Position numbers and translations under genes: made by a program | The notes under the pieces: generated by a model | Seen by the model: only the letters and a program-made list of their open reading frames with translations | Databases searched by the model: none | What the model was told of the DNA's origin: nothing | Shown here: piece by piece, positions 3,448 through 53,565 of the stretch | Layout of the letters: every line of letters begins with the position of its first letter | Position numbering within the stretch: position 1 is the stretch's first letter | IMG/VR virus record: IMGVR_UViG_3300028840_001956 | Span: 1 to 54,225 of that record | Direction: 5' to 3' (one strand) | From: a virus | DNA: 54,225 nt

Positions 3448-3624
3448 ATGGAATGCCCATTTTGCGGTGGACCAGGAGAAGAACTCGGGACGCTCGGTAG
3501 AAACACTTACGAACGGTGCCAGGACTGCGGCGGCGAATTCACAAGCGAAGCCCCCTCTGAGTCCTACGATGAAGAGGGAGATGACCTTTTTGATGACGAG
3601 AATTGGACTAATTGGTGTAACTAA
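3448..3624 (+). CDS. zinc-ribbon protein with acidic tail
   Basis: 58 residues, beginning MECPFCGG and followed by CQDCGG near residue 24: a complete CxxC-CxxC zinc ribbon, then a Glu/Asp-rich tail ending near WCN. The ATG is preceded by AAGGGGGA at normal distance, and the TAA overlaps the ATG at 3624 by one base. Small ribbons with acidic tails often bind partner proteins, but nothing specific can be assigned. Confidence 0.7.
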   Translation: MECPFCGGPGEELGTLGRNTYERCQDCGGEFTSEAPSESYDEEGDDLFDDENWTNWCN

Positions 3625-3722
3625 TGAGATTCAGGAGATTGGGATCGTCGGCATACAGGGATAGGCAGTCACGGATGTTTGAGGCTGCCTGCGTTAAACC
3701 GGAAAAACCACAGGAGAAAATA

Positions 3723-12935: not shown

Positions 12936-13109
12936 ATGGCTTATACTTACGAGTGCATAAAAAAGAAACATAGATTTTACACAACGCTAAGAGTACCAAA
13001 CCCTAAAATTTATCCTTGTGAAAAATGCTGGACAAAAGGCGTAAAGGAAATCAAAATCAAAAATAAATTTGCTACCGGCCTAAAATACAAGGGGATTGGA
13101 GACGCATGA
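12936..13109 (+). CDS. small zinc-ribbon protein (FmdB-like layout)
   Basis: 57 residues: 'MAYTYECIKKKHRFYTT', then 'YPCEKCWTKG' and a Lys-rich tail. The opening Tyr-Thr-Tyr-Glu-Cys and the later CxxC resemble FmdB-type single zinc ribbons, although the first knuckle has only one Cys. The TGA overlaps the ATG of the protease gene (ATGA), so both are translated together. The region is more AT-rich than its neighbours. Confidence 0.6.
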   Translation: MAYTYECIKKKHRFYTTLRVPNPKIYPCEKCWTKGVKEIKIKNKFATGLKYKGIGDA

Positions 13110-20103: not shown

Positions 20104-20136
20104 GTAGTTGATCTCCCTTAAAATTTGTTCTTGTTT

Positions 20137-20152
20137 TTTGTTTATAAACAAA
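20137..20152. promoter_or_regulatory. 16-bp perfect palindrome at the promoter start, candidate operator
   Basis: TTTGTTTATAAACAAA is self-complementary and abuts the -10 box of the minus-strand promoter (20152-20157), covering the expected +1. A dimeric repressor would block the PAPS-reductase-like operon from here. Confidence 0.65.
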
Positions 20153-20911: not shown

Positions 20912-22495
20912 TTGCTAAACCTATCGAATACAAGCGCCCGGGTACAGGAGACCGTTGACGACGAGATACAGGACCTCGATGAACTGAGGAAGATCCTGAA
21001 ATCTCAGCGTAAACGGCTCGATAGTTTGTATTGGATCAAGGATGCCTACGGCGAGCGTATCAAGTTCCAGATGAACTTCTCGCAGAAGAACCTGTATCTC
21101 GGGCTATGGTACTTCAACAATGTGCTTAAGGCACGCCAGGTGGGGATCACCACGTTCAGTTGTATCTTCGGCCTTGACCTGTGTATGTTCAATTCGAACA
21201 CTCAGGCGCTTATCGTGGCTCATAACAAGGACGATGCCGAGGAATTCTTTCACCAGAAGGTGAAATATGCCTACGATCAGCTACCACCAGCCCTGAAAGC
21301 TGCGAGGCCGGTCGATACCAAGAGGGCCAATAGGTTACGCTTCGATAATGGTTCGAGTATCAGGGTGGCGACCTCAGGGCGCTCAGGCACGTTTCAGTTT
21401 ATTCACATATCTGAGTTCGGAAAGATATGCGCGAAGTACCCCGAGAAGGCCAAGGAAATAGTCTCCGGTACCCTCAACGCTATCCACCCAGGTATGATCG
21501 TTGTTATCGAGTCCACCGCTGAAGGTCGAGAGGGTTTCTTTTACGACTATTGCGAGGTGGGCAAGAAGCTAAAGGACGAGGGCGCAAAGCTGACAGCCCT
21601 TGACCCTAAGTTCTTTTTCTTTCCATGGTGGAAGAACCCGCTGAATGTGTTGGAGCCTGAGGGGGTAACACTCTATGCTCACAATCTTAAATACTTTGAG
21701 GATCTCGAACTTAAACATGGTATCAAGCTCAGTCCACGGCGAAGAGCATGGTACGCTAAGAAGCTGGCCCAAATGGGTCAGGACCTCATGTGGCAGGAAC
21801 ATCCCTCTATACCTGAGGAAGCCTTCTATGCTGCTATCGAGGGAGCTTACTTCAAAGAGCAGATCAGGAAGCTCCGGCGTGAGAAGCGGATATGCGCTGT
21901 GCCTTACAACCCTGCCTATCTCGTCGATACCTGGTGGGATCTTGGGTACAACGACATAAACGCCATATGGTTCACACAGAACGTAGGGCGAGAGCTTCAC
22001 GTTATCAACTATTACGAAAACTCAGGTGAGGGCCTGCTGCATTACATCTCGAAGCTTAATGAGATGAAGGAAGAGCTTGAATACCGGTATGGGAGCCATA
22101 CAGCGCCGCATGATATCTTGGTCCACGAGTACACCAGCGGAAAGACCAGGAAGGCGTTCGCCAGGGAATCTGGCCTGATATTCAAGGTCTGCCCGAGAAC
22201 GTCCAAAGACGCACAGATAGAGGCGTCGCGGCGTTTCCTTAACATCGTACTCATAGACGAGGTACTCTGCGACAGGGGTATCAAATGTCTTGAGTCATAC
22301 CGGAAGGAATGGGATGAAAAGAAAGGCACTTATAAAAACAACCCTTATCACGATTGGGCTTCTAATGGAGCCGATGCTTGGCATACTATGTCCATAGCCC
22401 ATAAGTGGGCCGCCAACGCTGCACAGTTGGCAGACGCAATGGAAGCCAGGGCGAGTAGGCACGCCGAGAAAAAAGATAAGAAGGGGTGGACATAA
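20912..22495 (+). CDS. terL: terminase large subunit (packaging ATPase/nuclease)
   Basis: 527 residues, TTG start after an AGGGGGAT site. Walker A 'KARQVGITT' (about 73-81), Walker B-like 'IHISEFG' with Glu168, and the coupling motif 'VVIESTAEG' mark the ATPase. The C-terminal RNase H-like nuclease begins at 'TWWDLGYNDIN' (Asp343) and includes 'VHEYTSGKTR' and 'HDWASNGADAWHTM'. It translocates DNA into the prohead through the portal and cuts it. First gene of the morphogenesis block; overlaps the next gene by one base. Confidence 0.9.
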   Translation: MLNLSNTSARVQETVDDEIQDLDELRKILKSQRKRLDSLYWIKDAYGERIKFQMNFSQKNLYLGLWYFNNVLKARQVGITTFSCIFGLDLCMFNSNTQALIVAHNKDDAEEFFHQKVKYAYDQLPPALKAARPVDTKRANRLRFDNGSSIRVATSGRSGTFQFIHISEFGKICAKYPEKAKEIVSGTLNAIHPGMIVVIESTAEGREGFFYDYCEVGKKLKDEGAKLTALDPKFFFFPWWKNPLNVLEPEGVTLYAHNLKYFEDLELKHGIKLSPRRRAWYAKKLAQMGQDLMWQEHPSIPEEAFYAAIEGAYFKEQIRKLRREKRICAVPYNPAYLVDTWWDLGYNDINAIWFTQNVGRELHVINYYENSGEGLLHYISKLNEMKEELEYRYGSHTAPHDILVHEYTSGKTRKAFARESGLIFKVCPRTSKDAQIEASRRFLNIVLIDEVLCDRGIKCLESYRKEWDEKKGTYKNNPYHDWASNGADAWHTMSIAHKWAANAAQLADAMEARASRHAEKKDKKGWT

Positions 22496-22702: not shown

Positions 22703-24841
22703 ATGGCAGGTGCAATTGATATGGGACCGAAGGGTGAGGGCCTTGTACGTTTCGTTGGCAATGAAGAGATAGAGGCCAAGGAAGCCGCGAAGATGGCTGC
22801 TGAGAAAGAGCAAAACAGCGTGCTTAATCTCGGGTTGTCCGGCCACCTTCTGAAGAAGTGGGAAAAGGCCAAGATCAATAAGTGGTCGATCGAGGAGAAG
22901 CTGTTGGTATCCAAGCGGATGCGGAAGGGTAAATATAACCCTGAAGACCTCGCTCAGATAGAGAAGTTTGGCGGCTCCAATATATTCATGATGATAACCA
23001 ACGTGAAGTGTAGGGCTATCGAGTCATGGGTCAAGGACGTAATGCTCCCGTCCGGCGAGAAGCCCTGGACCATAGACCCAACGCCTGTTCCAGATCTCGG
23101 TGTTGATATCGAGAGGGCCATCGCAGCCCAGGTAGAGACCGAGGCGAAAGAGATCATGATGTCTCAGGGTATCCAGACGGTTAACCTTGATATGATCGAA
23201 GAGCGAATTGACGAGATCCGTGAAGACATAAAGCGCGACCTGATGCAGAAGGCCGTAAAGCAGACGATACAGATGGAAGACAGCCTCGAAGATGATCTCG
23301 TTGAGGGTGGTTTCTATGAAGCGTTCAGTGACTTCATTAAAGACTTCGCGACATACCAGACAGCCTTTATCAAAGGGCCTGTCATCCGTATGCGTGACGT
23401 TCTGAAATGGGAGAACGATCCGGTAAACCCAGGTTTAAAAACTCCTGTCGTCAGGAAGGTACTGAAGAGGGAATGGAATAGGGTATCTCCATTTGATATG
23501 TACCCAGGCCCTTCATCTAAAAACCTGAACGACGGCTACCTCTGTGAACGTATGCGTATCAGGCCCTCAGAGCTAATGGCCTTCAGGAACGTACCTGGCT
23601 TCAGCGCTCCGTCTATTGATATGATCCTAAGCCAGCACCGTATGGGACATCTTCGCAATTGGCTATGGACGGATCAGGAGCGTGCCAATCTTGATGATCG
23701 TCCGAATGAACTTGAGGATACCGGCGACGTTATCGAGGTCGTATGCTTCAATGGCCCTGTGCAGGGCAAGCTTCTGAAGGAGTGGGGGATTAAAGAGGAC
23801 ATCCAGGACGCCTTCGATTACGAGGTAATAGCATGGCTGGTCGATAGCTATGTTATTATGGCCCGTATCAATAGACACCCGCTTGGTGGGCGCAATTATT
23901 ATGGGGCTTCCTTCGAGGTCAACCCTGATTCTATATGGGGGTTGTCACCGCCCGAGCTACTTGAAGACTGCCAGCGTATATGTAACGCCGCCGCCCGGGC
24001 TGTCGTGAATAACATGGCTATCGCTTCAGGCCCTCAGGTAGAGGTGCATGAAGATAGGGTCGATCCCAAAGAGGATATCGAGGACATCTACCCATGGAAG
24101 GTATGGAAAACCAAGAGTGATGAACTCGGTAAAGGCACGCAGGCTGTGTATTTCCACCAGCCAAATGCCATGACCCAGGAGTTACTGCTGGTCTACGATC
24201 AATTCTTTAAACAGGCTGGCGAACAGTTGGGAGTCCCTGCCTATGAGCATGGCTCCCCTCAGGTCGGCGGTGCTGGCAAAACAGCCCATGGCCTGTCGAT
24301 GCTTATGAGCGCTTCCTCGAAGATCATGAAGGATGCCATAGGCAACATAGACAAGACCATTATAAAGCCCATAATCAAGGAACTGTGGCTCAACAAGATG
24401 CAATACGACGAAGATTTTAACCGGAATAACAAGGGTGATATCGACGTCGTTGCACGAGCCTCTGAATACCTGGTCATCGCAGAGCAACTGCAGATCAGGC
24501 GTGCTGAGTTCCTTAGCATGACCATGAACCAGTTTGATATGCAGATCATAGGCATGGCTGGTCGTGCCAAGATCCTCAAGGAAGTGTTGAAAACCTTGAA
24601 GATGCCGGACGAGATTATCCCTGATGAAATGATAGACGCGATGGATGTCGCGCAGGGTGGTCCGGCACAACCAGGCGCTCCAGGCATGATGCCAGGTGGC
24701 GCTCCAGGGCAGCCAGGTGTACCGGAGATGGGTGGCACAGCCATTCCCAATGCTCCAGGTGCAATGGCTCCAAACCCAGGCGAACCAGGTGGGCCGCCAG
24801 GTGGCGCTCTACCCGAATTGAATAAGCCAGAGAATCTCTAA
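22703..24841 (+). CDS. portal protein
   Basis: 712 residues, typical of short-tailed phages. Helical N-terminal part ('RAIESWVKDVMLPSGEKPWTIDPTP', about 108-132), acidic helices at about 150-210, a mid part with 'VSPFDMYPGPSSKNL' and 'LADCQ'-like 'ELLEDCQRICNAAARAVVNNMA', and helical C-terminal part typical of P22-type portals. The last 60 residues are a Gly/Pro/Met/Ala collagen-like tail ('GAPGMMPGGAPGQPGVPEM'). It forms the dodecameric ring for DNA entry and the tail joint. Follows terL directly. Confidence 0.85.
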   Translation: MAGAIDMGPKGEGLVRFVGNEEIEAKEAAKMAAEKEQNSVLNLGLSGHLLKKWEKAKINKWSIEEKLLVSKRMRKGKYNPEDLAQIEKFGGSNIFMMITNVKCRAIESWVKDVMLPSGEKPWTIDPTPVPDLGVDIERAIAAQVETEAKEIMMSQGIQTVNLDMIEERIDEIREDIKRDLMQKAVKQTIQMEDSLEDDLVEGGFYEAFSDFIKDFATYQTAFIKGPVIRMRDVLKWENDPVNPGLKTPVVRKVLKREWNRVSPFDMYPGPSSKNLNDGYLCERMRIRPSELMAFRNVPGFSAPSIDMILSQHRMGHLRNWLWTDQERANLDDRPNELEDTGDVIEVVCFNGPVQGKLLKEWGIKEDIQDAFDYEVIAWLVDSYVIMARINRHPLGGRNYYGASFEVNPDSIWGLSPPELLEDCQRICNAAARAVVNNMAIASGPQVEVHEDRVDPKEDIEDIYPWKVWKTKSDELGKGTQAVYFHQPNAMTQELLLVYDQFFKQAGEQLGVPAYEHGSPQVGGAGKTAHGLSMLMSASSKIMKDAIGNIDKTIIKPIIKELWLNKMQYDEDFNRNNKGDIDVVARASEYLVIAEQLQIRRAEFLSMTMNQFDMQIIGMAGRAKILKEVLKTLKMPDEIIPDEMIDAMDVAQGGPAQPGAPGMMPGGAPGQPGVPEMGGTAIPNAPGAMAPNPGEPGGPPGGALPELNKPENL

Positions 24842-30175: not shown

Positions 30176-31099
30176 ATGATTACTGCTGCTGCTGGGACTC
30201 CGCAATATAGTGGAATTTTCATTCCCGAGATTTGGTCGGGTAAGTTGCTTGTTAAATTTTATGCCGCCACCGTAATTGCCGGTATCACCAATACCGACTA
30301 CGAGGGCGAGATCAAAGATAAGGGCGACGTCGTTAAGATTCGCCAGGTGCCGGACATCCAGATCCGCGACTACTCGAAGGGCCAGAATCTCGTGATTCAG
30401 CGTCCCGAGAGTTCGGTCGTTGAGTTTCCGATCGAGAAGGCGAAATATTTCAACTTCATCTGTGATGATATCGACAAACACCAGACCGATATCGCTCTGA
30501 TGGACTCCTGGTCCGTCGATGCTTCCGAGCAGATGAAAATCGTCGTTGACGAAGAGTTCCTGGCCGACGTTTACGCCGACGCCCACTCTTCCAATAAGGG
30601 CCTGACCGCAGGCGCGAAAACTTCCGGCTACAACATGGGAGCCGCAGGCTCTCCGGTTGCCCTTACAAAGGTAAATATCCTTGACACATTGGTAGATGTA
30701 GGGAGTGTTTTGGATGAACAGAATGTCCCGTCCGACAGCCGGTCCATCGTACTGCCGCCCTTCGCGTGTGGTATGATTAAAAAGTCCGACCTGAAGGACG
30801 CCAGCCTCTCCGGTGACGGTACCAGTATGCTTCGGAATGGTCGTGTCGGCCAGGTCGATCGCTTCATGATCTACCACTCGAACTTGCTGACCGCAGTTTC
30901 CGATGGTGGTGGTGAGACCGCATGGCATATTATCGCCTGCCAGCGCCACGCCATCACGTTCGCCGCACAGATGACCAAGATGGAAAGCCTTCGGGCAGAG
31001 TCCACCTTCGGTACCCTGGTCCGTGGCCTGAACGTATACGATTATAATGTGCTGAAACCCACGGCACTCGTTGACCTGTATGTGTATAAGGCCAACTAA
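30176..31099 (+). CDS. major capsid protein
   Basis: 307 residues. 'PQYSGIFIPEIWSGKLLVKFYAATVIAGI...YEGEIKDKGDVVKIRQVPDIQIRDYSKGQNL' is the N-arm and early strands of HK97-fold coat proteins of the short-tailed phage type, and 'IDKHQTDIALMDSWSVDASEQMKIVVDEEFLADVYADA' is the spine helix region. Position just after the scaffold confirms it. Builds the icosahedral shell. Hairpins lie on both sides of the gene, which may set its level. Confidence 0.85.
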   Translation: MITAAAGTPQYSGIFIPEIWSGKLLVKFYAATVIAGITNTDYEGEIKDKGDVVKIRQVPDIQIRDYSKGQNLVIQRPESSVVEFPIEKAKYFNFICDDIDKHQTDIALMDSWSVDASEQMKIVVDEEFLADVYADAHSSNKGLTAGAKTSGYNMGAAGSPVALTKVNILDTLVDVGSVLDEQNVPSDSRSIVLPPFACGMIKKSDLKDASLSGDGTSMLRNGRVGQVDRFMIYHSNLLTAVSDGGGETAWHIIACQRHAITFAAQMTKMESLRAESTFGTLVRGLNVYDYNVLKPTALVDLYVYKAN

Positions 31100-40362: not shown

Positions 40363-43300
40363 ATGGCAGACCCTAAGTACGGAGATTCAGCCATGCCGGT
40401 GAACCGTTTCAAATACGGTGACGACCTATCGGCATATAAGACTCAACCTTCACCCGCCGACGCTCCTGCGTCTTCAACCGGTGAAACGGTTGATCCTAAT
40501 TACAAACCAACAGTTTTTGAGAGTATGTCCAACGACCAGTTCATTGACTTTCTTGTGGACAAGGCAGGGCCTGAGATGGATTTCGAGATGCAATTCCAGA
40601 AGGCCAAGCATTTCACAGATAGCCACAGGGAGAGGTACGCAGCATATGAGTCACAGCCTCAGTGGAAGAAGGACGTAGCACGCTCTCAGGGTGTACAGGA
40701 CCTCTATAATATACTGCCAGAAGCCGGTGGCTTTAAGAAATTTATGGCCCTGGCCCAAGACATAAAGACCCGCATAACAGGCTCTGAGCAGGATAAATAT
40801 CTATCCGAATTATTTGACAAGACAAAGCACGAACAGCTTGGTGCCGCAGCTATCGCAGAACTTCAGGAAAAATACGACATAAAAGAATTCCCAGGGAAAG
40901 AGCCTGGAGATCTTATATTCGATCAAGCCGTCCACGAAGGATTTAAGCAGGTTCAGTCTGGATATGATTGGACAGCCAGATCGGTGCGAGACCTTATCGT
41001 CAAAGAGTTTGAGCAGGGTACCGCGACTGACGATCTAATATCTGAAGACGCCAAAGCTCAAATGAGAATTGGTGATGCCTATATGGATAAACTACTTGAT
41101 CCTACTCAAAGTTATCAAGAGAACACCTATCTCATGGGCAAAACGGAGAAGTTTATAAATGACTTCGTTCAGATGGGACCGCAGCTTCTCGGTCAGGTTG
41201 CCGCTGGCAGTATTGGCGGCTTCGCTGGTGGTGCGCTGTTTATGTTCCCTCAGATCTACGGAGCAAAATATCGCAGAGTCAGGGAACTCGGCGGGACCGT
41301 AGAGGATGCCGTGTTCTCCGGCCTTATAGATGGTGCCTTGCAGGGATCTCTTGAATCATTGAGCATGGGCTTCGCCCTGAGGGGTGTTCCTAAGAAATGG
41401 CTCGGTAATAGGTTTTTCAAGAGCGTAGCAGACAGGGTTGCAGCCGGTGGCTCAGAGATGGTTACTGAATATGTTCAATCATTCATTGACGATTTCACAG
41501 AGGCCATAGGTGATCCTGGATTTAAAGAAAAGTTTCAATCTAAAGATTGGGCCGGTAAGGTCAAATTAATAAAAGAAAGAATGGGGAGCGCCAGCGCCGC
41601 AGGCGTACACGAGGGCCTTGTGGCTGGTCTATGGGGGATGGTACTCGGTGGCGCTCATGCTGATTCAGAAGTTAGCAGACGCTTCGGAAAAGAAGTCGAT
41701 GCAAGGGTTCAGGAAAGAATGGGTACCGCCGTCTCAGAGGATATCCTATCAAGGGCGGGTAAGGTGGCAAAGGCTGTACCACAGGAAGTCAAGGTCAGTG
41801 CAGATGCCAGGGAGATCCTCGACAACGCCGTGACCATCGTCGAGGGAGAGACTGCCAAAGCTGAGACCGCAGAGCGAATGGCTGCGATGCCTACCGACAG
41901 GGCTATCGAGGCTCCAGAGGGACTCGGCCAGCCGATTGTAGAAGGCGAGCCTGTAATGGCCGCCACCGATGCCGGAATCGCAACAGAGGGAGAGCTTGAA
42001 GTAGAACCAGAGGCTGCCGCACCAATGGCCGCCCGGGAAAGATTTCCAGGAACCATTTGGGACCTGAAGGGCGCTGAGAAGCCTACACCAGGTGGACCGG
42101 TATTACCGCCAGAGATCGAGGCCCTTAAGGACACGGACCCTGATGCCTATCAATTAGCGGTTGATATAGCGAAGACCAAGGAGACACCAAAAACTAAAGA
42201 GGCTCCGGCACCAAAAGCCAAAGAGGCTCCGGCGCTACTGAAGGAAAAAGGAAAGCTGTCATCTCGCGATAAGATCGAGCGCCTATGGTCCAGGATCGAC
42301 GAAACCCAGCGCTCAAAGGTTAAGGATCTATACGACGGCAAGATCGGTGATATGGATGATTATACCACCTATCAGATGATGGCCGCAGATCTTGTCAGTA
42401 AGGGTGTTGATATAGCTGTGCAAAGTAGACCGACACTCGCTGAGTGGCGTGTTAATCCCCAGGTCCGTCCGGCTGGAGTTCAGAAGGGAATTGGCAAAAA
42501 AGTCTATATGCCTGGTGAAACCGGAAGGACCGCAAAACAGATTAATCGTGGCATAGATGTTGCATATGGGACCACCTTCGGAGAGGCCGCATATAACGAA
42601 GAGCTAAAACTCGCTGAGAGCCGTCAGGTTGAACGCAAGGTCGAAGGGAAGCCGGTAGCACCAAGAGAGGCGAGAACGTCTCGGAAACAAGCTCCTGTGA
42701 AGCGAGAACCGGCAAAAGAGGGCAAGACCAGCACCGCAATATTCGAGAAATTCGTGGCCAGGATATCGTCCAAGGGCGAGGCTAAGGAACTGAGGGGCAT
42801 AAAAGCCAGTGAAATCAAACAGGTAACTAAGCTCACCAAGGTCCAACAGGCTGTCAATCAGATTTCGATAGTACTATATGGTACTCCGGTTGCATATTAC
42901 AATACGAGCAACCCTGTCCTGGACGCTTCCAATGGATATTACATGGAAGGTGCCGGACAGCTTTTGAATGCGAAAAAGCCAGAGGGCGCTCTATTGGCCC
43001 TATTCGGCCATGAATCATGGCACGATATGTCGGTTAACGAGCCGGTGCTCGCTGCTGCCGTAAAGAAGATATTCTGGCAGAACGTCAATAAGCAGGAGTG
43101 GAAAGATTATATTGATACCCTGTCTGCTGCGAGATATGAAGTCGGGCTTGGTGACCTCGATGAAGCTGGCATGAAGGAAGAGTTTGAGGCCGACTTTATT
43201 TCATCTAAATGGGCAGACCCTGAGTTCCTGAACAAATTGATAGATGCCCTTAATAAGAAGAATCCTGGACTCGCACTTAACCTGTTTAATCTGTTAAATA

Positions 43301-46300
43301 AAGCCCTGGCAAAGATCAAGGCTGCTATCCAGGCAGAGCTATGGACATATCTCAGGAAGGATGTAGAGGCCGTCGAGAATGTGTTAATAGACTTCTACGT
43401 CAAGCTGTCCGAGAAGAATAAGGCCAAGATCCCACTCGCTGCCGTCGATGCCATTACGATAAAAATGTCCATTGATGTCGGCAAGGTTGAGGCTATCAGG
43501 ACTCCGGCCTCAATGCACACGCCGTCCGGAAAGATCTACGAGGGCGCTATGCACTCGGTCGCCTTCGAGAAGATGGAAGCTGAACACGGTGATGTCAACT
43601 ATGTCTTAGAGGTCGAAGACGGATACATGACCACGTTTGAGAGGTTCGTCGATAGGGACGAAGGCAACGCCATTGCTGAGAATGCTAACCAGGTATCAAA
43701 GGATCGAGAGAGATCTTATCTGATTTCAGAGGACTTGATAAAGGATATCTCGGACACATACATCATAGACGGTGACGGCCATATCGTCGCAATGGCCCAT
43801 GTTAAGGGTGACGACGCCGCACTTGGGATGATAGATGCAATAGTGAAGGGGCATGACAGCCTTCTCGCTTATGACTCTGATGGTCTTGGGGTGATAGCAG
43901 AGTCTCTCGGTTTCGAACTCGAAAGCGAGGTTGACGGTAGACAGATATATAAATACAAGGGAGAAATATACGATGCAAACATCATTGCGGGACGTTTTGC
44001 GGCTACTTGGAATAAAGACCTCAGGGCTGACGAACGCACAGCAACGCTACTTGACGCGATCACTGAGCAGGCTCGCACCGAAGGGTCCAGAGTGGTTGGC
44101 GGCAAACAAGGCAAAGCTGAAGAAAAGCTTATTGAGTACCTTAACAGGTCTTGGAAGAGCTACGCCGCTGGCGAAAAGGTAACCGGCACAACCGATGTTC
44201 CCACAAAGAATGTGAGGGTTAAGGGTGGCAAGTCTACAATGGCTATGATCCAGGTTTCCTCTCTTCGTGGTCGTGAGCAGGCTACGGCCAGGGGCGACAA
44301 ATATTTCGACCTTCTGTACTCGAAGGTTGAGGGATACGAGAGACCAACTGACTTTTGGGAAGTACCGACCTGGATGGCCCACGGAGCAAAGAGCTTCAAG
44401 AACGCTGACGCCTATATCGTCAGGAATGTAGAAGAGGCGAAGGCTTATCTGAGGAACTCTGGATATGAGTCGATCATGTTCTCGGCCATGGATGCCAATA
44501 AGCATTTTATTAAAGAGTTGGCCGGAAGCTTCTCCGGTGATATTATAATTGGGGGGTACGTTGATCCCGGCTACTTTGCTGGGATTAAAAATATCAAGTT
44601 CGCGGATAGCATGGAAGCTGCTGCGAAACTGTTAAAGGTGCCGTTTAAACAGGGCGTTGATTACCGCCAGTTTAAAGGCACCAGGGTTATCCCTCGCCTT
44701 GAGATGTCAAAAGGCTGCAAGCATAAATGTGCATTCTGTACAGTGCCAAAGAAAATTGAGATGGCCGATGATATTGCTGACCAGGTTAAATCCATGGCCG
44801 GTCTCGGGCATAAACTGATATATCTAAACGATAAGACCTTCGGGCAGGCCGAGAACTATAAGGACCTGGTGAAGATCAATGAGCAGGTGAAGGCGCAGAA
44901 CCCCGAATTTCAAGGGTTTATAATCCAGACCACCGCACCGGCATTTAACAAGATGGATGACGAGTTCATCAAAGAGTCCGGTATTAAATATGTTGAGCTT
45001 GGGATGGAATCGTTTAACGATGATATCCTTGAGAAAATAAATAAGCCGCACCGACAGAAACATATAGTCGAGGCCGCCGATAAGATTCGCAGGCTTGGTC
45101 TTAGATTCATACCTAACGTGATGGTAGGATTGGCAGGGGTTGACAAGAAAGGTGACCTCTGGACTGAGACCGCAGAGTCTTATCGAAATACCCTGACATT
45201 CCTGGAGCAAAACAAGGATATCATATCACACACAAACTCATACATTCTGGCTACCTACGAGGGAACCGAGACGGGCAAGCAACTCGGGACGGATAATGAG
45301 ATTGATGGTGATGAAAATGTGGTGCAGAAATCATGGCTCCAAAACCGAGAGCTACATGATATATTCTACCGAAGGCTTCTTGAATTCAGCGAGAGGCAGA
45401 TCGAACAGCCGGACGTCAAGGCTTCCATCCTCGTTGCCAGAAAGGAAGATCCGGTCGTGCTGCCTGGTGAGATTCAGGAAGACCCCGATACGGTGGATAT
45501 GGACCCAAGGGATATTGACGAAGAGTACGCATACGCAGCTATCAAAATGGTTCATTACCTTGAGCTTAAGTCACAGGCGTATAAGAAGATACCGGATGAT
45601 AAGCACGACGCCTTCTCGAAGCACTACCAAAAACAGACCGATAGCGAACTTGGTGTATATTCTGATAGGGTTATCGGCTACCTTAAGAGCGTTTATAAAG
45701 ATTGGCTCAGTCGCCATCGTGGTCCCGAGGGCTGGTTTAAAAGTATGTTCATGGAAGAATATGACTATGGCATGGAGCCTTCCCAATATTTTACCAATGA
45801 AAAGATTGGCTTCATCAAAATGGGTGACTTTTGGGAATTCGACGTATCCAAGGATATCATTGACGCCGTAGAGGAAAAGGCCACGAGGCCTTATGTTCCC
45901 CAGGAGCGTGATGAACTTATCGAATTCTTCAAGGACGAATTAGATATCGAACTTAGCGACCTCGCCCTGAAGGAGTACGATGACGATATGCTGCTTGATA
46001 AGGCAGAAGAAATGGTTTACAACAAATACCCTGCCTGGTACTTTTGGCCTGATACTGTCGAACTCTCTGATATCAAGGGTCTTCTGAACCTGGATGGCTG
46101 GGACTCGCCGTTCGGCAAGATCGTTAGAGAGGTCATGGAAACAAAGGGCTGGGAAGCATGGAGAGCAAACTTCCCGAGTATGGGTGCCACAGAGGTGCGT
46201 GTTGAAGAACAGTACAAACGCCTGAAGGACGCAAAGGACCAGGCAGCCAAAATGACGGCTATCTCCCTGGCCCTAAATGAATCCCATGTTTACGGCACTA

Positions 46301-49300
46301 TGTCTGAACACGCTGGCCTTGCCAATACAGAGCTTCAGGAAATTAATAACATAGCCGATGGTGTATACAAATTTGAGGATATGCTCCGGCGTCAGTATAA
46401 ACCTGGTGAGGGAGAGGCACAGCTTAAGCAATCCCTGGACCTGAAGAAGGCCCTGAGTGGAAAGGCCATTAAGGTCAAGGTGGCCGGTAAAACATATGTC
46501 GTAAATGAACAGCGCCAGAGTATCGAGAAGCTGCTTGAAATTACCGGTGGTGCTGCCAGCCTTAAAAAGTTCCTGACCGACAATGGCGTCGATAAGATTC
46601 AGGCCGGTCGTATCCAGGCCATTGCAAAGAGTATGGAAGAGTATCCGTTTCCTTCCCCCGAGGAGACCGCCACAGCGCTCCTGGCGTTCGATAAAAAGAA
46701 TCCCGATGTAAAGGGTTGGTATGATAATATCAGCTACCTGAGGACCGTATTTGAGAATGACGATGACCTGAATCTATTCATAGGATTGGCAATGCTTTCC
46801 CATACCAGCCGCAACAAAGGGACCCTGGCGAACATGGGCGAGTTTATTAAATTCAGGATGCTTCAACGGGCCGGACAGGTTGACAAGAAATCTAAGTTCG
46901 GCCTGGTAGATCAGGCTACGGTTGACAGGGTGCTGAGTGCCGAGAGCATTGACGAAATGTTCAACATTGATTTCACGGCTCTTCAGTTCAAGAAGGGCGA
47001 GGTCAAGGTAAAGGCTTTTGCTGAAACATTCGCCGCAATTATGCGAGATCCAGAATCCCGCAATGCTATCGAGTCCGTTGTTGATATATGGGTCGGCCGG
47101 TACTTCTTCCCGTCGAAGACGAGTGGGGGGGTTGTCGATACCAGCGATACCGTGATGGCTATGTCACCCGTGCAGCACCTTCTGGTGCAGCGTCACATGA
47201 GAGACACCGAGGCCATCATGACGGAGAAGTCCGGTATAACCTGGCACCCTGATATGGCCCAGGCTGTATTGTGGTTCTATATCCGCAAACAGTGGGAAGA
47301 TGTGAGGGGTGATAAGACGGGACAGAAGGGCTATACCTTCGACGAAACCCTGAACGTATATGCCGAGAGATGGTCCGGCGCTCTGGACCTCGATGACCGC
47401 CAGGTAGAGGCTTATATAAAATACAAACTCAGGGACCCTGACGTCAGGCACATTCTCGACCTGTATTCGCAGGACAAGGACCTGAACGTATTCGATATGG
47501 TTAAGGCTGACGAGCCTCTGATTCTACAGCTATTCGATGCTGCCAAGCTGCCGAAGGACTATGACATCTCAGGTAAAACGAGGCACCGAGTTGTAATAGA
47601 GACCAATAAAATATACGATGCTGACGCAGATCCTGACGGGCTGATTGACAAGGGCTTCGACCCTAATGATATCACGACCTTGATGGATTTCGAAAAAAGG
47701 CTACGAGACGCAGGTTGGGTCGGGCTGCGCTCTGGCGAGATGACCATCCTGTTAGAGCCTGTCAGAACTGAGGCTATGAAGACGGGCGCTCTCGCGATCA
47801 GTCCGATGGTATCTCCAGAGGTTGTCGAGATATTTAAAAACAACTTTCCTGATAAATACAGGAAGATGATAAGATACCAGAAATGGTACGATGACGGAAA
47901 TATAGAAGCTCTCGATAACGCCATGCGCTCAGAGCTTACAAGGGTGTTCGCTAACCCGCTTATTGATATCCGTAGTATTGGTCCGGCTGAAGGGCGCTGG
48001 TCCGGTGGCCGCGAATATGCTCCGAGAGTAGATCTTGATTATGCCAACATCGACATAGCCAAGGGGCTGCTGGCTCAGTTCCTAAAGGACAATGGTCAGT
48101 ATGAGGGCGTGCTATCCGAAAGGGTGTCCGGCTGGAATGATAAGCAACGACCGAAGGGTATAGCCAAGGACCAGGCACCGAGTATAATGCTGAAATTTAA
48201 GAAGCCGCTGACGGAAGAGCAAGTCTCCGAAATAGTCGAGACCCTTGATAACAGTGGCATACCTGGCTCCGTGTACTCTCAGGAGATAAACGCACTCACC
48301 ATTCATCACCTGAAATACAGACACAGGGAAAAGACAGTTGGTCCGGCGCTCATGCTCGATGGGAATATTATATACGGCACCAAGAAGGATGACGGTAAAC
48401 TTGACGCGAAAAGCTACGAAGGTCTGTACAAGAAGGCCGGAACGACATTTAAAAAACTGCGCGAGGCTGGTGGGGAGAAGGGCTTCATAACCAATTTTGG
48501 AAATTTTGTAAACAACCAAAAGGCCAAGGAATTAAAGGCTAACTTCGGTAAGGTGAAGCAGAAAGATGTCGATTTCCTGAAGTCCGTCATTGATGCTGTC
48601 AGGGCTATTCAGGCCAAGTTCAATGAATACGAGGGCCTTGGGCAGGTATGGTACAACCATCATATCCTCGAAAATAATTGGTTGAAAAACCGGAAGGGTC
48701 AGGAGTATGACAAGTCAATCGAAAAGGCGCGACAGGTATCAAGAAATATGGGACTTATCGCAGAGCCAAAAGTTGTCTCAGGGAAGTACCGCAAAGGTAC
48801 GGAACTATTTAAAGGACAGGAAGGGTACCGCATTGGCGAGGGGCGCAAGATCTCTTCGGAGTCGGTCAAACTCATTAAGGAATTCATTAAGGCAGAACCG
48901 ATAGAAGGGCTTATAGACGCTAATCAGGCCGCACAGTATCGCACCTGGATTGCCTCTGGTATCAACATAGGGCCTGCCAGGATGAAACAGCTTGAGAAAT
49001 TCGATGCCGGAGAAGTCAAGCCAATAGCCGGTGAGCAGGCCGGTCTATTCGCCAGCGTGCCGATGGACAGGGCTGCAGCGTATAAGGCTGGAGAGGCTTA
49101 CGCGAAGGCTCCCAACAATCTGCTTGGGTTTAGTAAAGATCCGTTTGTTCAGAAGGGTTTCTATGATCAGAACTATTCCTATATCGCAGAGGTAGAGGTC
49201 ACATATCCGAAGACCGACCTGGCTCCAGAAACAAAATGGAGAGATAAGATCAGGGGTCTCAATATGAAGCAGGCCCTCGAACGTGCGCGACGCAATTGGG

Positions 49301-52300
49301 AAGGTGCTACCATTAAGTTCATTAAGGGGTATAAAGTCACAGATCGCAAGCAAGATGTCATGGGGTCAGTGACTGTCTATCACGGCACCGGCACTGAGTT
49401 TAAGCAATATGATCTTTCCTATATGAGTACCGGCGAGGGCTTTCAGGCATTCGGGTGGGGGCAGTATTTCACATATAGCAAGCGTATCGCAAGAGACTAT
49501 GCTGAGAAGCTCTCTAAGGGTGGGAAGCTTGGAACCCTACAGATAAACCTTCCACCGATAGCCCCTGCGAATGAATACCATCCAGGTGTTTCGGTTGATT
49601 ATGAACTCGTTAAGGATGGGGAGTGGGTAAAGCCAAAATTCTACAAGGTGAATGCCAATGATGATGGCTCTATAAAGAGCATTATCGGACCAGACGGAGA
49701 ATCAACGAGCGTTGAGTTTGCGAGAAATTTTGTCCACAGATATGTGAAGGCGTATATGGAAAATAAGATGCTTCTCGCAGTTAACAACGGAACGAAGATC
49801 GACGAGGACAAATTACTTGACTACCTATCGGACTCATTTGTAGAGTTGAGTTCAGATATAGAAGATGCCCGGGAACATATCCATTCTGAATATATGAGAA
49901 CGAAGAGAATGCCATTTATTAAAAAGCTAAAAGAAAAGCTCAACCTGGGAGACTCCGAAACGTCATCGAACGCTGCAGCTGCAATTAATAAATTCGACGA
50001 AAAGCATTACAATGAATTTATGGACCAGGTGTTTGACATTAAAGGTCTTGGGAAAATGAATGATATCATGCTAAGTGATATTAGCAGTGAGGTTGACGCC
50101 TGGGAAGATGTCTTCGCCAATAGCAGGGAATATATGGAAATGACCGGTGGGATTAAGGTCGTATATGTTACCGAGCTTCATGACGACTTGAAATTTCTCG
50201 ATTGGTATAAAACCATGAAGAGAGAAGACATTAAGAAAGTTATCTCAAGCCTGAGGGAAAGTCCAGATGTTGATCTCCTGCTATTAGATTCACTGAATAC
50301 AAGGCTCACAGAGGGGATGGTAGCACCGCTGGTTAAGAATGTATATGGGGAACTCCAGGCGCTTCTTGGATCTAAGAAGGCAGCCTCTATAGCTCTTGAG
50401 CAGGCAGGATTTGATGGTATTCGCTACGAGGCGAACAGTCTTTATGGTGGTATGCCGAAGGCGGTTGAATTCGAGCAGGACCTCGTTATGGAAGAGCTTG
50501 TTAGATATAAATCACTTCTACCGCCAAGGCTCAGGGATGTCCATTTTACAATGAGCAAAATTATTGACCACGATCCAGAGATTGTCGAGCAGGTCAAAGA
50601 ACATATAGACCCTGAGATGATAGACCGGCTGCACGAAGTTATCGAGACTGAATGGGGCAAGAATTATGTCCTGTTTTATAAGACTGAAGATCCCAAGTAT
50701 GCCACGATAACAGACAAGGTTTACCTGAGCCTCGATGCCTTCAGGGTGCAGGAGCAAGGCGCTGTGCAATACCTGAATTCAAAGGTTGGGAAGTCCGACA
50801 CCTCATTGACCGAAAAGCTGAATTCGACTTTCGGGTATTTTACAGGGGTTGGCGAAGACCGCAGTAACTGGCGGTACCTTATGTTCGATAAGCTTGATCC
50901 CATTGGTCAGTGGTTCGGACACGACAGCCACGCATACATGAAGGCCAGGGGTGTACCTGGGGCAGTTGGTTCATTGGCAGCATTCCTGGAGCATGGCAAA
51001 TTATATTGGGATAAGACCATGACTCTCGGGGTCCAGAAAGATCCGGCCACGAAACAGATCTCAAGGAAGAAGGGGTTTATCCCATGGGTCAAGGCTCTTG
51101 GTCCCAATGATGGTGTGAAATTCTTTTATTGGCTGATAGCCAAGAGAGCAGATGCTCTTGACGCAGAGGGCCGTGAGCACTGGCTCAAGGCTCCAGACAG
51201 GGCGAAGATCCTTGCATGGGTTGGCGTCCCTGAGAATAAACGTGGTCTAAGCTGGGAAGAAATCAATACCGAGTTTCAGGCATTCAATAAAAATATACTT
51301 GACATAGCTGAGAAGGCAGGCGTTGTAAGTAAGGCGTCCAGGGCTGATTGGGAATCGGATCTTTATATCCCATTTTATCGCGTTATTGAGAATCCGGTTA
51401 CAGCCGCAGAGTTTTGGAGAACGCCGCCGAGGTCCAAGGATTTTCTGAGCGCCGGTATCAAAAGGCTTACCGGTGGTGAGTCTAAGATCGGTGATCCGAT
51501 GGAAAATATAATGAAGAATTGGACCCACTTGCTTAATACGTCGATCACGAATGTCGCCAGGGGTTCGAGCGTCAAGTACGCCGTAGACAATAAGGTTATG
51601 ACCGGAATGACGAAGCTCATGAAGGTCAACGAATTCTCAGTATTCAACCCCGTGACCGGCACAACCCTCGATGTTTTTGATACCCGTAAAGAGGCCCAGG
51701 AATATATCAGGGACGAGATTACCAGCAACGACCTCTTCAAGAAAAAGGATATTAAAATAGTGAAGCATACCTCTGAGGTCGAGGTACCCATACCTGTCAT
51801 TGAAGAGGTACCATGGTCTCAGACGGTCGTAATGAAGGCTCAGAAGGACAAAAAGGGAAAGGCTACCGGTGCTATCTATATTCACAAAAAGACCGGAGAA
51901 CAGCTTCTCGGCTATCAGAAAGCCGGTAAAATGCAATATTTCAAGGTGAATGATCCTGAGCTTTACGTCGCTATCTCCGGCATGAACCCGCACCAGTTTG
52001 ATAATGCTGTTATGGAATTCTTCAGGACGTCAAAGAGATGGCTGACATACGGTGCCACCTTCGGTCCTGGCTTCAAGATTGCGAATGCCGTGAGGGACAC
52101 ATTGCATACGTCCCTTATTTCAAAGTCGTTCATCCCGTTCGTCGATACCATGCGTGGCTTCTGGAAGGCGTGGGCGCAGAATGAAGCTTATGTGAGCTAT
52201 CTGGCTTCCGGCCATGCGTTCGGCGGCGACTACATTAAATCTGAAGATCCAGCGGTGCTGGCTAAATACATAAAGAAACAGCTTAAGGGGCAAAACTTCG

Positions 52301-53565
52301 CTGATAAATTTATCAACAGTTTAACAGGAACTGAAGGTAAAACTATCATAGGCCGGATACTCGACACTCCTGGTAAGATGCTTGATTTTTGGGAGAGGCT
52401 CGGGTCTGCCTCTGAGAGTGCCGCCAGGGTGCAGTTAGCTGAGAACTTGAAGGCCAAGGGAGAATCAACGGCTAAAGCTTATTTTGCTTCAAGGGATCTA
52501 ATGGACTTTCAGATGTCAGGTGCTGCCGGTATTGTCCAGTTCCTGATTCAAACGATACCATTTCTGAACGCTCGCGCACAAGGACTTTACAAGATGGGAC
52601 GAGCAGTGAAGGAGAACCCGTCTCACTTTGCAATGAAGGCTTTCGCTATAGCCCTGGCGTCTCTCGGGTTGTGGCTTATATACAAGGACGACGACCGGTA
52701 CAAGGAGCTTGAGGATTGGGACCGGTTTGCATACTACCACTTTTGGGTTGGCGATCTTCACTTTAGGGTGCCGAAGCCATTCGAGACCGGTGTTCTGTTT
52801 TCTACTTCTGTAGAGGCCGCAGGCAACGTGATGGTGGGCAATGAGGACCTTGACCACTTGTGGACGTACATGAAACACGCAACCACAGAGACGTTCGCTT
52901 TCAATCCTATCCTCGGCATTCAGTCTGTAAAGCCGCTGGCCGAGCAATGGGCGAACAAGGTCAGCTTTACCGGGAGACCGATAGAGGGGCAAGGACTTAG
53001 CGGTCTGCGATGGGGAGAGCGCTATGATCCATGGACTTCAGAGACCATGCGCCTTATCGGTGGAACGCTGAACTTACCGCCTAAACGAATGGAGCATTTG
53101 GTCAGAGGGTATACCGGCACGTTCGGTATGTTTATACTCGGCGGTGCTGATCTATTCACCAGGAATGTATTCGACTTTCCAGAGAGACCGGCGATGACCT
53201 GGAACGAAATGCCAGGACTCACAAGGTTCATAAAGAGTGGCGAGGCAAGGAATACAAAATATATGACTCGCTTCTACGACCACTATAACGAGATGTCGAA
53301 GCTCGTCAGGACTGTGAACTATTATGATAAGCTCGGGGATATGACTATGGTCCGTAAGCTTGTCAGAGACAATAAAGAATTCTACGCACTCAAAAAGGAA
53401 TTTAACAAGGCCAGATCGAGTTTGGTAAAAATCAATCGTGATATCCGACTCGTGTGGCTAAACAACCGAATGGGAAGCGACGAGAAGAGACGGCGGATCG
53501 AAGTTTTATACGGGAAGCGGAATAAGATCGTTCGCTCAATCTATTCAAAATATAAAGAGAGGTAA
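40363..53565 (+). CDS. giant polyvalent internal virion protein: zincin, B12-like/radical SAM, ADP-ribosyltransferase, LPD38
   Basis: 4400 residues in one uninterrupted frame. N-terminal helical part with a hydrophobic Gly-rich segment (274-295); Pro/Ala/Glu linker (about 490-640); zincin 'GHESWHDM' (His883, Glu884, His887) with 'EEFEAD' (about 939-944) as third ligand region; a phage beta module near 1040-1130 and a GNAT-like stretch to about 1190; Rossmann B12-binding-like segment (about 1347-1430); radical SAM core with 'CKHKCAFC' (Cys1452, 1456, 1459), 'ELGMES' (1545-1550) and 'VGLAG' (1588-1592); a helical phage module with 'KGWYD' (2117) and 'VDIWVGR' (2240-2246); ADP-ribosyltransferase 'VYHGTG' (3005-3010), 'GWGQYFT' (3031-3037), 'GFDGIRYE' (3349-3356); LPD38-like C-terminus (about 3870-4300) with a transmembrane helix near 4091-4107. 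Position suggests ejection into the host with the DNA. Confidence 0.85.
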   Translation: MADPKYGDSAMPVNRFKYGDDLSAYKTQPSPADAPASSTGETVDPNYKPTVFESMSNDQFIDFLVDKAGPEMDFEMQFQKAKHFTDSHRERYAAYESQPQWKKDVARSQGVQDLYNILPEAGGFKKFMALAQDIKTRITGSEQDKYLSELFDKTKHEQLGAAAIAELQEKYDIKEFPGKEPGDLIFDQAVHEGFKQVQSGYDWTARSVRDLIVKEFEQGTATDDLISEDAKAQMRIGDAYMDKLLDPTQSYQENTYLMGKTEKFINDFVQMGPQLLGQVAAGSIGGFAGGALFMFPQIYGAKYRRVRELGGTVEDAVFSGLIDGALQGSLESLSMGFALRGVPKKWLGNRFFKSVADRVAAGGSEMVTEYVQSFIDDFTEAIGDPGFKEKFQSKDWAGKVKLIKERMGSASAAGVHEGLVAGLWGMVLGGAHADSEVSRRFGKEVDARVQERMGTAVSEDILSRAGKVAKAVPQEVKVSADAREILDNAVTIVEGETAKAETAERMAAMPTDRAIEAPEGLGQPIVEGEPVMAATDAGIATEGELEVEPEAAAPMAARERFPGTIWDLKGAEKPTPGGPVLPPEIEALKDTDPDAYQLAVDIAKTKETPKTKEAPAPKAKEAPALLKEKGKLSSRDKIERLWSRIDETQRSKVKDLYDGKIGDMDDYTTYQMMAADLVSKGVDIAVQSRPTLAEWRVNPQVRPAGVQKGIGKKVYMPGETGRTAKQINRGIDVAYGTTFGEAAYNEELKLAESRQVERKVEGKPVAPREARTSRKQAPVKREPAKEGKTSTAIFEKFVARISSKGEAKELRGIKASEIKQVTKLTKVQQAVNQISIVLYGTPVAYYNTSNPVLDASNGYYMEGAGQLLNAKKPEGALLALFGHESWHDMSVNEPVLAAAVKKIFWQNVNKQEWKDYIDTLSAARYEVGLGDLDEAGMKEEFEADFISSKWADPEFLNKLIDALNKKNPGLALNLFNLLNKALAKIKAAIQAELWTYLRKDVEAVENVLIDFYVKLSEKNKAKIPLAAVDAITIKMSIDVGKVEAIRTPASMHTPSGKIYEGAMHSVAFEKMEAEHGDVNYVLEVEDGYMTTFERFVDRDEGNAIAENANQVSKDRERSYLISEDLIKDISDTYIIDGDGHIVAMAHVKGDDAALGMIDAIVKGHDSLLAYDSDGLGVIAESLGFELESEVDGRQIYKYKGEIYDANIIAGRFAATWNKDLRADERTATLLDAITEQARTEGSRVVGGKQGKAEEKLIEYLNRSWKSYAAGEKVTGTTDVPTKNVRVKGGKSTMAMIQVSSLRGREQATARGDKYFDLLYSKVEGYERPTDFWEVPTWMAHGAKSFKNADAYIVRNVEEAKAYLRNSGYESIMFSAMDANKHFIKELAGSFSGDIIIGGYVDPGYFAGIKNIKFADSMEAAAKLLKVPFKQGVDYRQFKGTRVIPRLEMSKGCKHKCAFCTVPKKIEMADDIADQVKSMAGLGHKLIYLNDKTFGQAENYKDLVKINEQVKAQNPEFQGFIIQTTAPAFNKMDDEFIKESGIKYVELGMESFNDDILEKINKPHRQKHIVEAADKIRRLGLRFIPNVMVGLAGVDKKGDLWTETAESYRNTLTFLEQNKDIISHTNSYILATYEGTETGKQLGTDNEIDGDENVVQKSWLQNRELHDIFYRRLLEFSERQIEQPDVKASILVARKEDPVVLPGEIQEDPDTVDMDPRDIDEEYAYAAIKMVHYLELKSQAYKKIPDDKHDAFSKHYQKQTDSELGVYSDRVIGYLKSVYKDWLSRHRGPEGWFKSMFMEEYDYGMEPSQYFTNEKIGFIKMGDFWEFDVSKDIIDAVEEKATRPYVPQERDELIEFFKDELDIELSDLALKEYDDDMLLDKAEEMVYNKYPAWYFWPDTVELSDIKGLLNLDGWDSPFGKIVREVMETKGWEAWRANFPSMGATEVRVEEQYKRLKDAKDQAAKMTAISLALNESHVYGTMSEHAGLANTELQEINNIADGVYKFEDMLRRQYKPGEGEAQLKQSLDLKKALSGKAIKVKVAGKTYVVNEQRQSIEKLLEITGGAASLKKFLTDNGVDKIQAGRIQAIAKSMEEYPFPSPEETATALLAFDKKNPDVKGWYDNISYLRTVFENDDDLNLFIGLAMLSHTSRNKGTLANMGEFIKFRMLQRAGQVDKKSKFGLVDQATVDRVLSAESIDEMFNIDFTALQFKKGEVKVKAFAETFAAIMRDPESRNAIESVVDIWVGRYFFPSKTSGGVVDTSDTVMAMSPVQHLLVQRHMRDTEAIMTEKSGITWHPDMAQAVLWFYIRKQWEDVRGDKTGQKGYTFDETLNVYAERWSGALDLDDRQVEAYIKYKLRDPDVRHILDLYSQDKDLNVFDMVKADEPLILQLFDAAKLPKDYDISGKTRHRVVIETNKIYDADADPDGLIDKGFDPNDITTLMDFEKRLRDAGWVGLRSGEMTILLEPVRTEAMKTGALAISPMVSPEVVEIFKNNFPDKYRKMIRYQKWYDDGNIEALDNAMRSELTRVFANPLIDIRSIGPAEGRWSGGREYAPRVDLDYANIDIAKGLLAQFLKDNGQYEGVLSERVSGWNDKQRPKGIAKDQAPSIMLKFKKPLTEEQVSEIVETLDNSGIPGSVYSQEINALTIHHLKYRHREKTVGPALMLDGNIIYGTKKDDGKLDAKSYEGLYKKAGTTFKKLREAGGEKGFITNFGNFVNNQKAKELKANFGKVKQKDVDFLKSVIDAVRAIQAKFNEYEGLGQVWYNHHILENNWLKNRKGQEYDKSIEKARQVSRNMGLIAEPKVVSGKYRKGTELFKGQEGYRIGEGRKISSESVKLIKEFIKAEPIEGLIDANQAAQYRTWIASGINIGPARMKQLEKFDAGEVKPIAGEQAGLFASVPMDRAAAYKAGEAYAKAPNNLLGFSKDPFVQKGFYDQNYSYIAEVEVTYPKTDLAPETKWRDKIRGLNMKQALERARRNWEGATIKFIKGYKVTDRKQDVMGSVTVYHGTGTEFKQYDLSYMSTGEGFQAFGWGQYFTYSKRIARDYAEKLSKGGKLGTLQINLPPIAPANEYHPGVSVDYELVKDGEWVKPKFYKVNANDDGSIKSIIGPDGESTSVEFARNFVHRYVKAYMENKMLLAVNNGTKIDEDKLLDYLSDSFVELSSDIEDAREHIHSEYMRTKRMPFIKKLKEKLNLGDSETSSNAAAAINKFDEKHYNEFMDQVFDIKGLGKMNDIMLSDISSEVDAWEDVFANSREYMEMTGGIKVVYVTELHDDLKFLDWYKTMKREDIKKVISSLRESPDVDLLLLDSLNTRLTEGMVAPLVKNVYGELQALLGSKKAASIALEQAGFDGIRYEANSLYGGMPKAVEFEQDLVMEELVRYKSLLPPRLRDVHFTMSKIIDHDPEIVEQVKEHIDPEMIDRLHEVIETEWGKNYVLFYKTEDPKYATITDKVYLSLDAFRVQEQGAVQYLNSKVGKSDTSLTEKLNSTFGYFTGVGEDRSNWRYLMFDKLDPIGQWFGHDSHAYMKARGVPGAVGSLAAFLEHGKLYWDKTMTLGVQKDPATKQISRKKGFIPWVKALGPNDGVKFFYWLIAKRADALDAEGREHWLKAPDRAKILAWVGVPENKRGLSWEEINTEFQAFNKNILDIAEKAGVVSKASRADWESDLYIPFYRVIENPVTAAEFWRTPPRSKDFLSAGIKRLTGGESKIGDPMENIMKNWTHLLNTSITNVARGSSVKYAVDNKVMTGMTKLMKVNEFSVFNPVTGTTLDVFDTRKEAQEYIRDEITSNDLFKKKDIKIVKHTSEVEVPIPVIEEVPWSQTVVMKAQKDKKGKATGAIYIHKKTGEQLLGYQKAGKMQYFKVNDPELYVAISGMNPHQFDNAVMEFFRTSKRWLTYGATFGPGFKIANAVRDTLHTSLISKSFIPFVDTMRGFWKAWAQNEAYVSYLASGHAFGGDYIKSEDPAVLAKYIKKQLKGQNFADKFINSLTGTEGKTIIGRILDTPGKMLDFWERLGSASESAARVQLAENLKAKGESTAKAYFASRDLMDFQMSGAAGIVQFLIQTIPFLNARAQGLYKMGRAVKENPSHFAMKAFAIALASLGLWLIYKDDDRYKELEDWDRFAYYHFWVGDLHFRVPKPFETGVLFSTSVEAAGNVMVGNEDLDHLWTYMKHATTETFAFNPILGIQSVKPLAEQWANKVSFTGRPIEGQGLSGLRWGERYDPWTSETMRLIGGTLNLPPKRMEHLVRGYTGTFGMFILGGADLFTRNVFDFPERPAMTWNEMPGLTRFIKSGEARNTKYMTRFYDHYNEMSKLVRTVNYYDKLGDMTMVRKLVRDNKEFYALKKEFNKARSSLVKINRDIRLVWLNNRMGSDEKRRRIEVLYGKRNKIVRSIYSKYKER

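Follow-up and report, generated by a model that had tools for sequence, protein, structure and literature searches.

Can a protein that a phage encodes among its virion genes harbor a complete radical enzyme, and, if so, on what would that enzyme act? The question is raised by a 54,225-base virus record (the window, meaning here the whole stretch of DNA that was analysed), in which a sequence-only reading had placed a radical-SAM (rSAM) enzyme with a B12-binding-like front end inside a 4400-residue polyvalent protein. That reading had also suggested that the enzyme is delivered at infection, as a new type of phage weapon.

The giant protein and its radical-SAM module

The giant ORF belongs to a gene block that also holds portal, head, and presumed tail genes, and lies downstream of the genes for the terminase large subunit, an SU10-type portal with its adaptor, and the major head protein; Table 1. 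As is typical of polyvalent proteins, unrelated domains (LPD38, rSAM, an ART-like stretch, an HEXXH motif, and a DUF7178-like domain) are carried on one giant chain encoded among virion genes. The single ORF and the LPD38 domain thus bear out the proposed embedding of the rSAM domain in a polyvalent protein. The last 540 residues match phrog_18222 (275 bits), and a protein of 4596 residues in another record (L002) is a full-length relative. Neighbors of the other rSAM-bearing giants encode head, tail, DNA-transfer, and internal virion proteins, as well as endolysins and thymidylate synthases. We infer that the 4400-residue giant probably travels in the virus particle and is injected along with the DNA.

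Table 1. Positions of the giant protein, of its recognized parts, and of virion genes in the window
Feature	Position (nt)	Strand	Basis
Giant polyvalent protein, 4400 aa	40363..53565	+	Uninterrupted single frame
HESWH, zincin-type metallopeptidase motif, aa 883-887	43009..43023	+	Read from sequence
rSAM module, aa ~1290-1675	44230..45387	+	AlphaFold, conserved island, 24-29 phage homologues
N-terminal Rossmann (cobalamin-domain-like) half, aa ~1290-1440	44230..44682	+	Model, structural alignments, invariant positions
Pfam Radical_SAM core, aa 1447-1594	44701..45144	+	PF04055
CX3CX2C [4Fe-4S] motif, C1452/C1456/C1459	44716..44739	+	Translation and conservation
DUF7178-like domain, divergent copy, aa ~2100-2335	46660..47367	+	Iterated profile
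ART-PolyVal-like stretch, aa 3004-3059	49372..49539	+	25.6 bits, under Pfam cut-off 31.2
LPD38 (large polyvalent protein associated domain), aa 4110-4285	52690..53217	+	Pfam, 123 bits
Terminase large subunit (context)	20912..22495	+	phrog_2, 97 bits
SU10-type portal (context)	22703..24841	+	PF23899, 42.3 bits
Major head protein (context)	30176..31099	+	phrog_267, 184 bits

The giant shares with the polyvalent proteins of Iyer et al. 2017 (PMC5512222) its size and multidomain architecture, its position near virion genes, LPD38, the ART-like stretch, and the HEXXH motif, zincins of this kind being typical of such proteins (PMC5512222). It differs in having an rSAM domain, whereas the main text of that paper mentions neither a radical-SAM nor a glycosylase domain (zero occurrences of 'radical', 'B12', or 'glycosylase'). 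The region around HESWH matched no family.

The segment is a genuine and complete radical-SAM module. It matches the Pfam Radical_SAM family with an E-value of 3e-15 (57.2 bits for the segment alone and 54 bits in the whole protein, cut-off 29.5). Re-translation of positions 44401-45410 gave a protein identical to the one read before, with C-K-H-K-C-A-F-C at residues 1452-1459, and with the motifs assigned to later core strands at residues 1544-1550 (VELGMES) and 1583-1592 (IPNVMVGLAG). None of the three cysteines varies in the first set of homologues (29/29 sequences), all three are present in all 72 loci collected, and an invariant GGY at residues 1397-1399 (GGYVDP, residues 1397-1402) marks the Rossmann half. 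The span 44401-45410, first proposed for the module, had its place right and its size too small, as the module is slightly larger and starts near residue 1290.

Between residues 1316 and 1700, the protein is 77% identical to its nearest relative (L002/L037), even though 59% of the four-fold-degenerate sites differ, and identity drops to about 47-56% on either side. This pattern indicates strong purifying selection on the rSAM module. A chance motif was ruled out by the Pfam score and the conservation, and a frame error or separate gene by the single unbroken frame, found both in the window and in the relative. A recent cellular insert of odd composition was likewise rejected, the G+C content of the segment (0.46-0.48) being similar to that of its surroundings.

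Several other parts of the window and of its relatives can be recorded here. Residues 1130-1280 (nt about 43750-44202), just ahead of the module, read like an acetyltransferase (GNAT) fold; this stretch matched no family, and other rSAM giants do match GNAT families. The L002 giant has about 200 extra residues after the position of window residue 2014, with a YHGT-like motif of the ADP-ribosyltransferase type (VVFHGTRAQKDFAIF). This segment is absent from the window giant, so that modules appear to be gained or lost between close relatives. Elsewhere in the window are a PAPS-reductase-type PP-loop protein (19336-20151, minus strand, opposite to the surrounding genes; PF01507, E 4e-12) and a ClpP-type protease domain whose N-terminus seems to carry a lipoprotein-like signal (13106-13837, plus strand).

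Fold of the module and the cobalamin question

An AlphaFold model of residues 1285-1690, built from a profile of 24 sequences, reached a mean pLDDT of 90.1 and a pTM of 0.87, and revealed a full barrel preceded by a Rossmann fold resembling a cobalamin domain. The Rossmann half consists of five alternating strands and helices, with the strands at model positions 9-14, 64-69, 86-91, 109-114, and 127-129. Class B (cobalamin-dependent) rSAM enzymes are characterized by an N-terminal five-stranded Rossmann domain ahead of the barrel (PMC13331322), and the same arrangement is present in the model. Structural re-alignment against the PDB gave Z-scores of 23.2 for AprD4 (359 residues), 22.6 for MgmA, 21.1 for CysS, 20.6 for MiaB, 20.4 for RimO, 20.0 for MtaB, 19.6 for OxsB, and 18.6 for TsrM, with Foldseek E-values for the structural neighbors of about 1e-11 to 1e-16. 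These matches, to solved full-length radical-SAM enzymes, cover 314-359 residues and take in both the barrel and the Rossmann half; the alignments to OxsB, TsrM, CysS, MgmA, and AprD4 all extend over the Rossmann half.

The proposal of a radical-SAM domain was therefore confirmed by the Pfam score, the predicted barrel, and the retained Cys triad, and neither a missing barrel nor a loss of the triad in homologues, either of which would have spoken against it, was encountered. The B12-binding-like front end is correct as a statement about fold. Cobalamin is at most a candidate cofactor, for AprD4, MiaB, and RimO match the model about as closely as the cobalamin enzymes do, and a diagnostic cobalamin motif is unavailable. 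The module shares with class-B-type enzymes (PhpK, HpnJ, CysS, TsrM, OxsB, and MgmA) the Rossmann-then-barrel order and the fold over its whole length, but its front end is cobalamin-domain-like by predicted fold only, and it sits inside a phage polyprotein. AprD4, a diol dehydratase (6fd2) with the top structural score, differs in being an antibiotic-biosynthesis enzyme with 15% identity to the module, which scores 16 bits against the NCBIfam AprD4 model (cut-off 500).

Family searches did not narrow the assignment further. The best NCBIfam match was the PhpK P-methyltransferase (55 bits, cut-off 600), followed by other B12-binding/rSAM families, all of them far under their cut-offs, and the best PDB profile matches were RimO and TM_1862. 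No conserved cysteine beyond those of CX3CX2C was found in the family alignment. A methylthiotransferase of the MiaB/RimO type was rejected, as the set of three N-terminal-domain cysteines for the second cluster is absent from that alignment. A search of viral structures returned only generic phage or giant-virus rSAM proteins. Spore photoproduct lyase was not among the fold matches listed, which excludes nothing.

A phage enzyme family with a recurrent glycosylase-like partner

Used as the only query, the window sequence returned a single relative, giving the module the look of an orphan; the family was opened by the motif YLNDKTFG, present in 33 viral stretches, of which 32 encode this protein. 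Profile searching extended the set to 68 viral loci and four loci in bacterial genome assemblies. Among the 68 viral loci, 47 carry the module in an ORF of 713-4989 residues (some cut by contig ends), and the other 21 in a short ORF, mostly of 380-560 residues (two cut by contig ends). The existence of short-ORF forms shows that it also functions outside a giant protein. In a maximum-likelihood tree, the deeper branches are short-ORF forms and the embedded forms are nested, which forces at least two switches between the two. Only three of the 52 giants that share the C-terminal module of the window protein have rSAM, marking it as an optional, modular domain. Searches by tblastn with three members against 50,697 isolated-phage records yielded no close relative, only two weak, partial hits in fragments lacking annotation.

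Cellular occurrence is sparse (1/297 genomes in one order and 2/294 in another), and the cellular relatives are 31-38% identical and lie on long branches. Judged by sequence, this is a previously unrecognized phage rSAM family, nearly absent from cellular genomes.

The relative in Rhizobium smilacinae (L105:5703-14815) lies in what looks like a small-molecule biosynthesis operon, with genes for a class II aldolase, an aldehyde dehydrogenase, a cobalamin adenosyltransferase, a nucleoside-phosphorylase-type protein, and an ATP-grasp protein. An aldolase, dehydrogenase, cobalamin-adenosyltransferase, and phosphorylase-type set could remove 5′-deoxyadenosine and supply cobalamin. Such a gene set would fit an active radical enzyme, while leaving room for a small-molecule substrate. 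A relative from Streptomycetales, the order to which Streptomyces jumonjinensis belongs, likewise lies in an apparent small-molecule biosynthesis operon (L248:8757-14503), with genes taken by eye for those of a kinase, an acyltransferase, and an MFS exporter. No DUF7178 was seen in the operons of the cellular relatives.

Clustering of the neighbors of the short-ORF rSAM genes yielded one recurrent protein, Pfam DUF7178, at 8/21 loci. It lies within 3.3 kb of the short-ORF rSAM at nine loci, in some cases much closer, the two genes being three bases apart in L066 and overlapping in L095. The two domains are fused in one giant ORF in 24 fetched loci and in the window, always with rSAM on the N-terminal side. 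The window copy is very divergent (12% identity to that of L095) and was matched at residues 2109-2323 (E 1.5e-6) only after iteration of a profile from which the window and L037 had been held out.

The association was compared between records with and without rSAM. Pfam's own DUF7178 model matched 20/42 rSAM-bearing records and 0/33 terminase-related phages that are likewise negative with the rSAM profile (Fisher p 7e-7). Among the 52 giants with the window's C-terminal module, DUF7178 was found in 3/3 with rSAM and 2/49 without (p 5e-4), a comparison that is partly circular, rSAM loci having supplied the training set of its profile. About half of the rSAM-bearing records, some of them fragments, show no DUF7178, and 124 isolated-phage records have DUF7178 but no rSAM. 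The genetic link between rSAM and DUF7178 is thus strong and well supported, yet not obligatory. In isolated phages, the lone DUF7178 genes lie near genome ends or in early regions.

Two phage lineages, represented by contigs of 106-291 kb, have a D12 N6-adenine DNA methyltransferase gene immediately upstream of the rSAM gene (L098, 9150-9950; L100, 1256-2062, and L101). A small window gene (3624-4046, plus strand) encodes a 140-residue protein (DUF3574, phrog_16022) that is kin to small genes near the short-ORF rSAM and DUF7178 genes of L083, L085, L093, L095, and L107. One such small gene weakly resembles a phage S-AdoMet lyase. A lyase-like third partner was considered and dropped, as the match was weak (17.9 bits, cut-off 28) and the small-gene profile also matches the window protein that Pfam calls DUF3574.

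DUF7178 appears, from a predicted model, to have the fold of OGG2/HhH-GPD DNA glycosylases. The model, made from the L095 protein rather than the window copy, has a pLDDT of 91.7, and all 50 PDB entries listed for it are HhH-GPD DNA glycosylases or homologues. Its structural re-alignment gave Z-scores of 12.2 for MjOgg (173 residues), 12.1 for SsOgg, 11.6 for TmOgg, and 9.7 for endonuclease III, a Z of 12 being moderately safe at most for an all-helical fold. With Foldseek alone, the E-values were not significant (best about 0.5-1) and the leading matches included OGG1 chains, and profile searches against PDB sequences ranked MjOgg first at a sub-threshold E of 0.04-0.06.

Conserved residues and independent annotations point the same way. 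The Trp-Tyr, Lys, Asp, Gln, and Trp positions of DUF7178 are nearly or fully invariant over 28 sequences, with K109, D129, Q175, and W179 present in 28/28, the window copy included. An alignment that is ungapped and sub-threshold pairs the invariant Asp with that of the OGG2 motif IIDRH and puts the invariant Lys no more than one residue from the Lys that is Gln in 3knt. Annotators of isolated phages have named DUF7178 relatives 'DNA glycosylase', 'N-glycosylase/DNA lyase', or 'glycosylase'. DUF7178 resembles the OGG2 8-oxoguanine DNA glycosylases (MjOgg, SsOgg, and TmOgg) in predicted fold and tentatively in the aligned Asp, with the Lys off by one residue, but is only about 10-14% identical to them, with a sub-threshold sequence match (E 0.04), and is listed by Pfam as of 'unknown function'. 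No mention of DUF7178 was found in the open-access papers searched.

Substrate and proposed action in the infected cell

The sequence-only reading had named rRNA, tRNA, protein, or a metabolite as the target. The genomic context favors DNA instead, which is the better-supported substrate because the recurrent partner has a putative DNA-glycosylase fold and a D12 methyltransferase gene lies upstream in two phage lineages. We tentatively favor, at somewhat short of even confidence, a pair of enzymes acting on DNA bases, namely the rSAM with its cobalamin-domain-like front end, inserted in a probably ejected giant, and the glycosylase-fold DUF7178 domain. If the protein enters with the genome, both enzymes would be present ahead of phage gene expression. 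The [4Fe-4S] cluster would be built into C1452, C1456, and C1459 in the host by the host Fe-S machinery, with SAM and an electron donor also drawn from the host; assembly inside the host is probable because ejected proteins pass through a narrow tail. The radical released by SAM cleavage would then modify or repair a base, and DUF7178 may flip out the same base and process it through its invariant Lys and Asp. Counting against this reading are the divergence of the window's DUF7178 copy, the small-molecule-type operons around the distant cellular rSAM relatives, and the lack of a recognized base-modification pathway in the window phage. Among the possible outcomes, modification or repair of phage DNA ranks above damage to host DNA, and the role of a phage weapon is a guess.

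Two other readings place the substrate elsewhere, and both are unlikely. The rSAM might modify host RNA or protein early in infection, by methylation or methylthiolation in the manner of MiaB, RimO, or MgmA, with DUF7178 as an independent module. MiaB, RimO, MtaB, and MgmA are structural neighbors (Z 20.0-22.6), RimO and TM_1862 lead the PDB profile matches, and unrelated activities are combined in polyvalent proteins (PMC5512222). However, the second Cys cluster is absent, with the CX3CX2C cysteines alone conserved, the conserved module stops near residue 1675 with no RNA-binding appendage identified, and the recurrent partner appears to be a DNA glycosylase by fold. Alternatively, and with the same low probability, the enzyme might act on a small molecule (a nucleoside, sugar, or amino acid), for example, making or destroying a signalling or antiviral nucleotide. 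Such a role draws on the top structural match to AprD4, a sugar diol dehydratase, on the metabolic gene neighbors of the Rhizobium relative, and on the kinase, acyltransferase, and exporter genes beside the L248 relative, whereas the cellular relatives are rare and distant, their operons lack DUF7178, and the phage contexts indicate DNA.

A more specific reading, a repair kit in which the rSAM reverses or converts one lesion on incoming phage DNA and DUF7178 removes others in an OGG-like manner, so that damaged genomes can start, is less likely still. The OGG2-like predicted fold of DUF7178 and its placement near genome ends or in early regions of isolated phages would suit it, and radical-SAM repair of a lesion has a precedent in spore photoproduct lyase; that enzyme is not known to have a Rossmann front end, however, and was not among the structural neighbors listed. 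Finally, a decaying or purely structural remnant serving as scaffold in the giant is highly improbable, for although the majority of giants sharing the C-terminal module do without rSAM, making it dispensable for the core role of the protein, its catalytic cysteines and SAM-barrel motifs are strictly conserved over 72 loci, and amino-acid identity is high against the four-fold-site divergence.

For a pair acting on DNA bases, one of the closest known systems is phage thymidine hypermodification, in which radical-SAM isomerases work with aGPT-Pplase proteins. The likeness, a phage rSAM together with a protein of DNA-glycosylase fold on DNA bases, can serve as a lead only. In contrast to that system, no hydroxymethyl-dU pathway genes, and no other recognized base-modification pathway, were found in the window phage, and the window rSAM is fused in a polyvalent protein. 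Polyvalent proteins and rSAM enzymes with cobalamin domains are individually known in kind. The combination of rSAM with a polyvalent protein, the rSAM family, and the glycosylase-fold assignment of the partner were not found in the main texts of the open-access papers searched.

ADP-ribosyltransferases, proteases, nucleases, RNA polymerases, and methylases are among the known injected phage effectors. Were a radical enzyme, with its fragile metal cluster and its need for SAM and a reductant, carried on an ejected polypeptide, it would represent new chemistry at the opening of infection, and would raise the question of how the cofactor is loaded after entry. It is possible, if doubtful, that many uncultivated phages inject a premade rSAM and glycosylase-fold pair on one polypeptide, for a new radical modification or repair of DNA bases at the onset of infection, with the cluster rebuilt by the host. 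The widespread pairing with a DNA-glycosylase-like partner is a hint that DNA bases may undergo radical chemistry during infection. It makes one testable system of two unknowns, and points to a phage DNA-base chemistry that may be as yet undescribed.
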